Part shown: piece by piece, positions 1 to 37,166 of the stretch
Numbering within the stretch: the first letter of the stretch is position 1
How the letters are laid out: each line of letters begins with the position of its first letter
NCBI GenBank assembly: GCA_024278215.1
Contig: JAJRTR010000036.1
Location: 1-37,166 of the forward strand
Length of the DNA stretch: 37,166 nt
Source of the DNA: a bacterium
Lineage (GTDB): Bacteria > UBP15 > UBA6099 > JAJRTR01
Direction of reading: 5' to 3'
Translations under genes and position numbers: made by a program
Notes under the pieces: generated by a model
Database searches by the model: none
What the model saw: only the letters and a program-made list of their open reading frames with translations
What the model was told of the DNA's origin: nothing

Positions 1-689
1 CAACGGCGCGGGCACCGTGCTGGTCGTCGACAACAGCGGCAATATATTCTCCAGCGGCACCATTTCCGCCGACGGCGGCTTCGACGCACCGATCTCGGCC
101 ACGCAAACAGCGGTGGTCGGCTACGCCGCCTATTTCAACGTCAGCAATGTCGGCAATGCCGATGCGGCCCTCAAAGTTGAAACCATCGGCACCGGCTCCG
201 CCCTCTACGCCGACAACACGGGCGGCGGCACCGCCGCGCAGCTCTACAATACCAACGCCGGCAACACGAATCCCGTTCTGTTTCTCAGTCAGGCGGGCAC
301 CGGCGACTTCATCAACGCCTACAACGGCGCGGGCACCGTGCTGGTCGTCGACAACAGCGGCAATATATTCTCCAGCGGCACCATTTCCGCCGACGGCGGC
401 TTCGACGCACCGATCTCGGCCACGCAAACAGCGGCGGTCGGCTACGCCGCCTATTTCAATGTCAGCAATGTCGGCAATGCCGATGCGGCACTCAAAGCTG
501 AAACCATCGGCACCGGCTCCGCCCTCTACGCCGACAACACGGGCGGCGGCACCGCCGCGCAGCTCTACAACACCAACGCCGGGAACACGAATCCCGTTCT
601 GTTTCTCAGTCAGGCGGGCACCGGCGACTTCATCAACGCCTACAACGGCGCGGGCACCGTGCTGGTCGTCGACAACAGCGGCAATATAA
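1..689 (+). repeat. 321-bp in-frame tandem repeat (2 full copies plus partial)
   Basis: Copy 1 covers 1-321 and copy 2 covers 322-642. A third copy starts at 643 and diverges after about 46 bases. By eye the two full copies differ at six positions, of which two change an amino acid (both Val to Ala). The array begins at or before the window edge, so more copies probably lie upstream. Confidence 0.92.
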
Positions 690-3322
690 ATGCGAGCAAT
701 ACGCTCTATGCAAGCGCGACGGTACTTACAGGAGACTATATGAACTTCGGCGGCACACTCGGCGACACGGGCTATGGATTGCGCGACAACGCCGGTGATG
801 TCGAATACAAGGACAACGGCGGTTCATGGACAGCACTCAATAGCCTGGGCGGCGCAGGCGGCTACGTCAGCGACACAGGCGACACAATGACAGGTTCGCT
901 CGTTATAAACGCTGATACGGCTACGTCTTCTCTCTACATCTCGAACACAGACAATGCAGGTACCGGATACGCGGCTTACTTCACAACGACCGGTGCGACA
1001 AACGCAAGCGCGACGTTATCCGTCATGCAGGACGGCACCGGCAAAGCCGCCTATTTTGAAAAAAGCGTGGACAACACCGGCGCGGCTATTGCCGGAAGAA
1101 CCGCTGGAACAGACATAGACGCTATCGGAATTTCAGGTTTCGCGGCCGGCCTTGGAAGTGGCGTGCGTGGTTACAATGCCGCAGGCGGCAAGGGCGTGAT
1201 GGGAGTGAACGAATCCAGCGGCTACGGGATAGTCGCGGCCAACACAGGTACCGGCACTGCTCTCGGCGTCCAGCACTCAGGCACATCTGGCCTGCTGGTC
1301 GAGATGAATGACGGCGCAAATACCATGTTTACAATCGACAGATCGGGGAGCATCAACGCCTCGGGAACAATAGATGTCGAAGGGGAGATCCACACAGACC
1401 TGGGGTTTGACTCCGGATTGAATGTGCCGGGCTACGTCGCTTTCAAATCCGTAGGCGGCAACACGGACGGCATATATATCGACAATCCGGGAACAAGCGG
1501 CAAAGTCGCCCAATTCCTCGCAACAAGCGGCGCAAACAGCAATTACACACTCACCGCGATCAACGACGGCACCGGCGGCGCCGCGCTCTTTACGGCAAAT
1601 GGCTCGTCGGGCACCGCCACGGACGTTGTACTGATAGAAACGAACAACACGACAATTGACAGCGTCGGACTGCATGTGAACCACACGAGCAGCGGTGTAG
1701 CCGCAATATTCGAGAGCATCGGAGCGACACCGACCGTCAAAGTGCAACAACACGGCAGCAATACCGGACTGGATATCTCTACAGTTGACGGCAATATCAT
1801 TGTCGGTCGCAGCCTCGGCGCGGGCAACCTCACGGTATTGTCGAATTCGACAGGCCAGGGCTTCACCATCGATAACAATGGAAATGTTTACGCAAGCGGC
1901 ACGGCGAACTTTGCCGGCGGTATTACAGGTTCCGTAGCGAACACAGGCGACACAATGACCGGTTCGCTCGTCATCAGCACGAATACTGCGACCGACGCGC
2001 TCTATATAAACAACACCGGCGGCGGCGACGCAATCGCAGCCAGCGGAACAGTCTCCATCGGCAGCGACACCGGCGCGGACGGTTACGATGTTAACTTCTA
2101 TGGCACTTTCAGCGCGGGTGCAGGTAGTGACCGTATGTTCTGGAACGCCTCGAAAGATGCTTTAGGCGTGGGCTTCGACTCTACAGGCTCACGCTGGAGC
2201 GACGCCAATATGGGCGAATACTCGTTCTCCGCAGGCTACGACGCATTAGCCACCAACACCACCGCCGTCGCGCTCGGCTACCAGACCAACGCAGGCGGTC
2301 AGTACTCCACCGCGATGGGTAACGGCTCGACCGCAAGCGGTGATTATTCCACTGCTACGGGAAATGGCTCGACTGCCTCCGGTCTGGCTTCGACTGCCTT
2401 TGGCAACGTTACCATCGCTTCCGGCGACTTTTCTACCGCAATGGGATATTATTCAGACGCCTCCGGCGACTATTCCATCTCTGCCGGTGAATATGTAACC
2501 GCTGGCACAGCCGCCAACACTATCACCCTCGGCCAGGGAGCATCCGCCGCCAACAGGCTGGTAAACAACACGGCATCTTCTCTTATGGTCGGCTTCAACA
2601 CCGACCAGCCCACTCTCTTCGTCGGCCCCGGCAGCGGCGTGGGCACATACGGCAATGTTGGCATAGGCACGACCGCCCCCGGCGCAAGGCTGGGTGTCCT
2701 CACCACCGATGTCAGCGTAGCGGCGGCAATTTTCGAAACAAACAACACAGTAGCGGCTACATCCACTGTAATAATAAGATCAAACACGAATACTTCCGGG
2801 GGACAAGCTCTTTACGTAAACCAGTCCGGCAGCGGTGACGGCGCAATACTTGCCGAGATCACAGGCAACACCAGTATCCAGACAATTTACGAGGGCAACA
2901 CCACCGGAAGCGGACCGCTTATCAATCTAAAACAAGCGGGATCAAACAAATTCTTTGTCGGCAACGACGGCAGCATTTTCGCCAGCGGCACAATCGAAGT
3001 CGGATGTCCTCCCACCATGAAGGACGCCGGAAGCTACTGCATCGATATCGACGAAAATGCCGGCAACACCTTCTTTACCGCCGCCAACACATGTCAGGCA
3101 CAGGGCAAAGTTCTTTGCACCACATCACAGTGGATAGCCGCCTGCAACAACGTCGCCGGTCTCAACACAATGATCGACAACGACGAATGGGTGGATTCGG
3201 TCTTCTGGAACAACGGCTCGACCAGCATCCAGAGTGTGGTCATCGGCAACGGAGCTTGTAACAGTGTTAATAACAACGACCTTACAGGAACCCAAACATT
3301 CAGATGTTGTCTTAACAATTGA
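2..3322 (+). CDS. Giant repetitive surface/fibre protein, 3' part (5' end outside window)
   Basis: The frame is open from the first base, so the N-terminus is missing; about 1106 residues are visible. From the left are two 107-residue repeats and a fragment of a third. Low-complexity beta-rich modules rich in G/T/N/S follow, with two GDTMTGSLVI motifs as in phage tail-fibre repeats. At about nt 2215-2515 there are YadA/Hep_Hag-type head repeats (A-x-G-x-x-S-x-A-S-G pattern, for example YSTAMGNGSTASGDYSTATG). A C-terminal domain (about nt 3001-3319) has eight cysteines and the C-T-x-x-Q-W-x-x-A-C pattern seen in FGE-sulfatase/C-type-lectin folds. There is no YadA membrane anchor, so it is not a classic trimeric autotransporter. 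I infer an extracellular trimeric fibre or adhesin with a binding tip; the ligand is unknown. The stop codon lies at a mobile-element junction. Confidence 0.8.
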   Translation, partial: NGAGTVLVVDNSGNIFSSGTISADGGFDAPISATQTAVVGYAAYFNVSNVGNADAALKVETIGTGSALYADNTGGGTAAQLYNTNAGNTNPVLFLSQAGTGDFINAYNGAGTVLVVDNSGNIFSSGTISADGGFDAPISATQTAAVGYAAYFNVSNVGNADAALKAETIGTGSALYADNTGGGTAAQLYNTNAGNTNPVLFLSQAGTGDFINAYNGAGTVLVVDNSGNINASNTLYASATVLTGDYMNFGGTLGDTGYGLRDNAGDVEYKDNGGSWTALNSLGGAGGYVSDTGDTMTGSLVINADTATSSLYISNTDNAGTGYAAYFTTTGATNASATLSVMQDGTGKAAYFEKSVDNTGAAIAGRTAGTDIDAIGISGFAAGLGSGVRGYNAAGGKGVMGVNESSGYGIVAANTGTGTALGVQHSGTSGLLVEMNDGANTMFTIDRSGSINASGTIDVEGEIHTDLGFDSGLNVPGYVAFKSVGGNTDGIYIDNPGTSGKVAQFLATSGANSNYTLTAINDGTGGAALFTANGSSGTATDVVLIETNNTTIDSVGLHVNHTSSGVAAIFESIGATPTVKVQQHGSNTGLDISTVDGNIIVGRSLGAGNLTVLSNSTGQGFTIDNNGNVYASGTANFAGGITGSVANTGDTMTGSLVISTNTATDALYINNTGGGDAIAASGTVSIGSDTGADGYDVNFYGTFSAGAGSDRMFWNASKDALGVGFDSTGSRWSDANMGEYSFSAGYDALATNTTAVALGYQTNAGGQYSTAMGNGSTASGDYSTATGNGSTASGLASTAFGNVTIASGDFSTAMGYYSDASGDYSISAGEYVTAGTAANTITLGQGASAANRLVNNTASSLMVGFNTDQPTLFVGPGSGVGTYGNVGIGTTAPGARLGVLTTDVSVAAAIFETNNTVAATSTVIIRSNTNTSGGQALYVNQSGSGDGAILAEITGNTSIQTIYEGNTTGSGPLINLKQAGSNKFFVGNDGSIFASGTIEVGCPPTMKDAGSYCIDIDENAGNTFFTAANTCQAQGKVLCTTSQWIAACNNVAGLNTMIDNDEWVDSVFWNNGSTSIQSVVIGNGACNSVNNNDLTGTQTFRCCLNN

Positions 3323-3461
3323 TTCGTGTGTAATTAGCCATTTTCAATACAGCCGTTGTTGTTAATGTCAGCGGAAATGCACAAAAACGCTATTTGCGAG
3401 TTCGCTATTGTTGCTTATTGTCTGTTGACAAATGTCATCCGTGCCTTTTTACACACGAATC
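3321..3461. mobile_element. 141-bp MITE-like insertion with 12-bp TIRs and 7-bp target duplication
   Basis: The ends are perfect inverted repeats, GATTCGTGTGTA at 3321-3332 and TACACACGAATC at 3450-3461. They are flanked by identical direct repeats AACAATT at 3314-3320 and 3462-3468. No reading frame of note lies inside, so any transposase must act in trans. Without the insertion the surface-protein gene would read L-N-N-TAG. With it the gene reads L-N-N-TGA, the T coming from the target duplication and GA from the element, so the protein is unchanged. Confidence 0.8.
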
Positions 3462-3470
3462 AACAATTAG

Positions 3471-3534
3471 TCGGATTTTCCTCATGAGAAATCCGGGGCG
3501 GGAACAGTAAGCGGCTTATGAGCCAATTGCAAAC
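3471..3534. repeat. REP-like palindrome followed by a solo MITE end
   Basis: An imperfect palindrome (CGGATTTTCC-TCATGAGAAATCCGG) is followed by a spaced AGTAAGCGG. It is related to sequences at about 23571-23608 and 34833-34853. GAGCCAATTGCAAA at 3520-3533 matches the terminal inverted repeat of the 178-bp element found at 18624 and 37027, but no body of that element follows. Confidence 0.6.
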
Positions 3535-3616
3535 CCGGTGTCGAAATAAACCTACGGATTCCGAGACAGAGCTCCATTTGATTAGAATTTCCAATAAATC
3601 TATAATTCCAATTGAC

Positions 3617-18623: not shown

Positions 18624-18801
18624 GAGCCAATTGCAAAATTATGATTCTGCTGCGGTCGGCTGCAATTGTCCATAGCTGCGTTGTCGGCATAAAATCGTCC
18701 TCGACATACTCTACAAGTATGCCTGCGAGGATTTTACACCTCCGTCTTGCTCTGAACAATTTCGCTCGACCTCGCTACGAACATAATTTTGCGATTGGCT
18801 C
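18624..18801. mobile_element. 178-bp MITE with about 20-bp terminal inverted repeats
   Basis: The left end GAGCCAATTGCAAAATTATG and the right end CATAATTTTGCGATTGGCTC are inverted repeats with one mismatch in 20. GGAT flanks both sides (CGGAT if the last C is counted as target), a likely short target duplication. Inside, about 18698-18730, is a hairpin whose arms are CCTCG..CATACT and AGTATG..CGAGG. There is no coding capacity. The first 140 bases are repeated without indels at 37027-37166. Confidence 0.85.
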
Positions 18802-36908: not shown

Positions 36909-36933
36909 AAAAGCCCCAATCCATTTCTGATTG

Positions 36934-36948
36934 TTTTGCAATTGGCTC
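36934..36948. repeat. Solo MITE terminal repeat (right-end orientation)
   Basis: TTTTGCAATTGGCTC, the reverse complement of the 178-bp element's left end, without the element's body beside it. It is followed by TATTGTACCG, as after the full element at 18801. Confidence 0.55.
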
Positions 36949-37026: not shown

Positions 37027-37166
37027 GAGCCAATTGCAAAATTATGATTCTGCTGCGGTCGGCTGCTATTGTCCATAGCTGCGTTGTTGGCGCGAAATCG
37101 TCCTCGACGTACTCTACAAGTACGCCTGCGAGGATTTTACACCTCCGCCTTGCTCTGAACAATTTC
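37027..37166. mobile_element. Second copy of the 178-bp MITE, cut by the window end
   Basis: The same 140 leading bases as at 18624-18763, with no gap and only a few substitutions (for example GGCTGCAATTG to GGCTGCTATTG). The right end lies outside the window. Confidence 0.88.

Follow-up and report, generated by a model that had tools for sequence, protein, structure and literature searches.

Bacterial miniature inverted-repeat elements (MITEs) of about 141 bp, the size of the element described here, are well known (PMC2229807, PMC10969869, PMC6382973). RUP of Streptococcus pneumoniae and the Correia/NEMIS elements of Neisseria are likewise MITE-like, 107–155 bp long, present in many copies and largely intergenic, and their transcripts form hairpins (PMC2229807). 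In RUP and most of the listed elements the targets or ends are of the TA type, whereas the element here has GATTC ends and a YAAnnTTR target that is duplicated over 6–8 bp. MITEAba12 of Acinetobacter (113 bp) also has terminal inverted repeats, target duplications and AT-rich targets, but its duplications are 9 bp and it has a known partner, ISAba12 (PMC6382973). One MITEAba12 copy fuses to the 3′ part of a gene and supplies its stop codon (PMC6382973); that stop is premature, costing 398 residues, while the stops treated here are the natural ones.

As described in a review, the Chunjie MITE of Geobacter uraniireducens is likewise short and non-coding, with terminal inverted repeats and direct repeats, and has about 38 full copies in one genome, mostly intergenic. 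It is larger (178–235 bp), it is likened to ours by description and not by sequence, and the review makes no mention of exact landing on stop codons. Our literature search, which had most subscription papers outside its reach, found no report of repeated stop-codon landing. The family presented here is unlike described MITEs in its YAAnnTTR target, in its 6–8 bp duplications and, above all, in its repeated, protein-silent landing on stop codons.

The element and its host gene

The window, the whole 37,166-nt stretch of DNA analysed, reads AACAATT at 3314–3320 and again at 3462–3468, and between these target-site duplications lies a 141-bp element (3321–3461, forward strand) reading GATTCGTGTGTA...TACACACGAATC. 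The original prediction had placed it correctly to the base, with 3314 and 3468 as the outer limits of the duplications. It had given perfect inverted ends of 12 bp; they are indeed perfect and slightly longer, 13 bp, reading GATTCGTGTGTAA on the left (3321–3333, forward strand) and TTACACACGAATC on the right (3449–3461, reverse strand). As also predicted, the element is short and non-coding, with no coding ORF inside it.

The host gene (17–3322, forward strand) encodes a large protein with YadA head repeats. With the element present it ends CTT AAC AAT TGA (L-N-N-stop), the TGA at 3320–3322 taking its T from the end of the left duplication and its GA from the start of the element; when the flanks are joined without the element it ends CTT AAC AAT TAG. 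The claim of a protein-silent insertion after the T of TAG thus holds, L-N-N being kept. The right duplication is followed by the AG of the original TAG (3468–3470, forward strand), now apart from the gene. Separation from the natural 3′ flank, a further part of the prediction, was also found: the flank is displaced by 148 bp, together with its hairpin GGATTTTC-CTCAT-GAGAAATCC (3471–3497, forward strand). The gene downstream of the element encodes a GH31 glycosidase.

The window holds other repeats as well. The hairpin at 3471–3497, directly after the MITE, belongs to a set of similar short palindromes found between genes in this genome, REP-like and of the form GGATTT-loop-AAATCC; others lie on contigs C142, C126, C144, C151 and C207. 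Another dispersed repeat family has ends GAGCCAATTGCAAAATT, with about 178 bp between outer ends; it occurs in the window at 18624–18801 and at 36932–36948 plus 37027–37043, with a fragment at 3520–3536, about 50 bp past the MITE. Its end core has 36 matches in 308 kb of genome sequence, and the reversed control has none.

A family of related copies

Searching the genome for the element was a test named beforehand. The genome is a draft assembly of 4.55 Mb in 207 contigs with 95% completeness, and the search found about 40 related stretches across many contigs, in other flanks and mostly with target duplications of their own, so that what had been called a MITE-like insertion is one copy among many. 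These 141-bp stretches are a new lineage-specific MITE family. Complete copies number 34, mostly 140–144 bp long, with pair identities of up to 99%. There are two main subfamilies, A (13 copies, including the window copy, which is 96.5% identical to the subfamily consensus) and B (17 copies), and each consensus is exactly 141 bp. The left end reads GATTCGTGTGTAATwAGTC and the right end GATTCGTGTGTAAAAAGTC or GATTCGTGTGTAATAAGTC, giving terminal inverted repeats of 13 bp when perfect and about 20 bp when imperfect.

Exact target duplications flank 22 of the 34 complete copies (6 bp in 16, 7 bp in four and 8 bp in two), and about six further complete copies have duplications with one mismatch. 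When flanks were mismatched as a control, only 24 of 1122 pairings had at least five matching bases. If T and A are instead assigned to the element and the duplications shortened, the empty site is unchanged, and for AAnnTT targets the two parses are indistinguishable; we kept the duplication length at 6–8 bp because exact matches extend that far.

Two enlarged copies of 278 bp (L062, C56:5422–5699) and 168 bp (L077, C77:11275–11442) carry extra internal sequence and keep exact target duplications. A third variant is one-ended (L068, C44:18342; L064, C112:123255; L144, C9:9978); its members are homologous over about 135 bp and diverge near TTTGACA, and two of the three are placed at gene stop codons.

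Recurrent landing on stop codons

Each complete copy was excised together with one duplication, and the empty sites so reconstructed show that five of the 34, including the window copy, split a natural stop directly behind its T (T|AG or T|GA). The original stop was TAG in the YadA-like gene of the window and in a glycosyltransferase gene (C83), and TGA in the genes for a TPR plus cyclase protein (C57), an amylo-alpha-1,6-glucosidase (GDE; C84) and a sodium symporter of the SNF transporter type (C144, on the other strand). The four genes outside the window all match known protein families, and in the GDE case the next called gene begins just 12 bp past the original stop. With the element in place all five stops read T|GA and the proteins are unchanged. 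Recurrence at stop codons was absent from the original prediction, and follows from the element ends and the target preference.

Single element ends add three cases. The alpha-mannosidase adjoining a truncated copy on C9 stops at the codon where two relatives and a paralogue, all without the element, also stop. The C-terminal domain of the alpha-L-fucosidase adjoining another truncated copy, on C112, is complete (88/88). The third, on C59, was rejected as a silent insertion and counted as a broken gene, its response regulator being cut within the domain (78/111). Counting the window copy, six insertions that hit natural stops are confirmed, five by reconstructed empty sites and the sixth by homologues; the fucosidase of C112 is probably a seventh.

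Of the long coding frames that enter an element end, eight of eight use the T|GA frame and none uses either of the other two, for which (1/3)^8 = 1.5e-4. Sixteen copies lie no more than 200 bp downstream of a gene 3′ end, the five at distance 0 and the others at 7–179 bp.

Target preference

The target model draws on 38 half-sites of copies that lie away from stop codons. The duplication's final base is T in all 38, and a purine follows in 33; the target forms a palindrome, Y-AAnnTT-R. T almost invariably closes the duplication, and either end of the element opens with GA, so that the junctions spell TGA. The TTR on the right side of the target is what a stop after an AT-rich codon offers, so a stop codon with A/T before it is a good target.

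Whether this is sufficient depends on the null model, for which about 308 kb of sequence sampled from the genome was used. All nulls together give 0.4–2.9 expected stop-codon copies against the five seen, with P from 3e-5 to 0.14. There is a small chance that stop codons are actively preferred, T|RR being favoured beyond AAnnTT by the transposase or by a process linked to transcription or translation, with GA ends that evolved or were selected to re-form TGA. The five copies of 34 at distance 0 speak for such a preference, as do the additional cases on C9 and C112, and the target-motif null in the sampled genome, with no gap limit or a limit of 500 bp, expects only 0.4–1.1 (P 3e-5 to 5e-3). 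Once gaps are limited to 250 bp, however, the same null expects 1.9–2.8 (P 0.04–0.14), and a null drawn from each copy's own intergenic gap expects 1.8–2.9 (P 0.0016–0.06); the gene calls behind these figures come from a simple codon model, and the related GATTCCGG family has no stop-codon case among its five complete copies. The target motif and selection against broken genes explain most of the excess at stop codons; an extra preference for stops beyond the motif is possible.

A slightly smaller chance attaches to the idea that the element is kept at 3′ ends for its usefulness, serving as a 3′ hairpin by which the mRNA is protected or terminated. The terminal stem is long, with arms of 22 nt each (3319–3340 and 3442–3463) at 86% complementarity, and for the strand of the window copy, folding surpasses that of 200 shuffles (z −3.2 as DNA and −3.9 as RNA). 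In six or seven genes the stop is immediately followed by the element, and MITE hairpins in transcripts are known to affect mRNA, for example in Neisseria (PMC2229807, PMC10969869). Against this, the orientation of the element relative to genes is mixed and many copies lie away from any 3′ end.

That the stretches are a structured RNA, an integron attC site, a REP/REPIN or a terminator instead of a transposon, as a hairpin-forming intergenic sequence of about 140 bp might suggest, is highly improbable, being contradicted by the target duplications and different flanks of most copies; an Rfam search gave no match, and the surroundings of the window copy show no sign of an integron.

Our main reading carries high confidence: the 141 bp are a copy of a lineage-specific, non-autonomous DNA transposon family whose GA ends and YAAnnTTR target make landing on a stop silent.

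Transposase and a related short family

The original prediction had expected the transposase to lie elsewhere. End-pattern scans of the assembled draft genome found no two matching ends, inverted, at 0.5–5 kb from each other, and inspection of the 3-kb flanks of single ends found no autonomous partner. Four transposase families were searched in the genome (PF01609, PF07592, PF12762 and PF13612). The DDE_Tnp_1 (PF01609) search gave three matches, one transposase gene (L101) and two fragments (L102 and L103), which were rejected as partners, none having recognisable GATTC ends; judging by eye, we take the first to be IS4-like and the fragments to be IS1634-like. Models for ISAzo13, IS1595 and IS982 had no match in the genome, the ISAzo13 negative being weak in that its control was empty everywhere. 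The autonomous partner may have been lost, may be missing from the assembly or may belong to a family other than those searched. L101 itself, on C200, appears intact; its inverted ends, CCAATrCCGTTCAGTTAAG, are separated by about 1.5 kb.

A GATTCCGGCGCAAAAAGTC repeat family of 102–140 bp in the same genome shares with the 141-bp MITE the end skeleton GATTCnnnnnnAAwwAGTC and AT-rich duplications of 6–7 bp; it differs in its interior, and stop-codon insertions were not found in it. The common skeleton and the similar duplications suggest that one transposase type served both short families. Members with GATTCCGGCGCAAAAAGTC ends are L067 (C62:33368–33469), L145, L146, L141 and L142, with duplications such as AAAATT and AATGTTT, and in one case the family adjoins an end of the 141-bp MITE family.

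Occurrence in other genomes

A search of 59 other genomes, of which six belong to the same order, did not detect the element. When about 85,000 species genomes were scanned with the end sequence, a single match appeared in an unrelated bacterium, which we rejected as a chance coding match because it lies within a NUDIX-type coding sequence of a Methylococcaceae MAG (by eye, presumably RppH-like), and a scan of viral contigs gave none.

The original prediction had also looked to relatives for empty sites. The nearest relatives that have the host gene belong to the same order but to another family. In two such genomes its homologues end -NNRTFRCCL-TGA without the element, while the window gene ends -GTQTFRCCLNN-stop; RCCL-stop in the homologues against RCCLNN-stop in the window places the element where the gene naturally ends. 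The DNA downstream of the homologues differs from the downstream flank in the window, so the exact AACAATT-AG empty site is a reconstruction from the duplication. Both the host gene and the alpha-mannosidase thus have element-free homologues that stop at the matching position, at gene-end and not base-exact resolution. Both conditions that the original prediction had set for its own refutation were examined, and its interpretation withstood them.

Discussion

The transposon reading implies the following course of events. A transposase, which we assume to be of the DDE class, would act in trans on GATTC-type ends, cutting the short palindromic AT-rich target Y-AAnnTT-R and duplicating 6–8 bp, as the copies show. 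Insertion at a stop would re-form a stop at once and so keep every residue, as seen directly in five copies and through homologues in the sixth. Most insertions within genes would be lost by selection, leaving the silent ones at gene ends and those in gaps. In the window copy, the element would add a strong predicted hairpin to the 3′ part of the mRNA while shifting the native 3′ flank by 148 bp.

Mobile elements limit harm to their hosts in various ways, often by entering the gaps between genes. Here the target preference and the element ends jointly make stop-codon insertion protein-silent, and this has occurred at least six times in one genome. It offers a simple, testable route for mobile DNA into dense genomes and between closely spaced genes, as at the GDE gene with its neighbour 12 bp downstream, and a means of adding hairpins at mRNA 3′ ends with proteins unchanged. 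If true, stop-tuned transposition would be a safe-site strategy, allowing entry at gene ends, even between close genes, without loss of protein.
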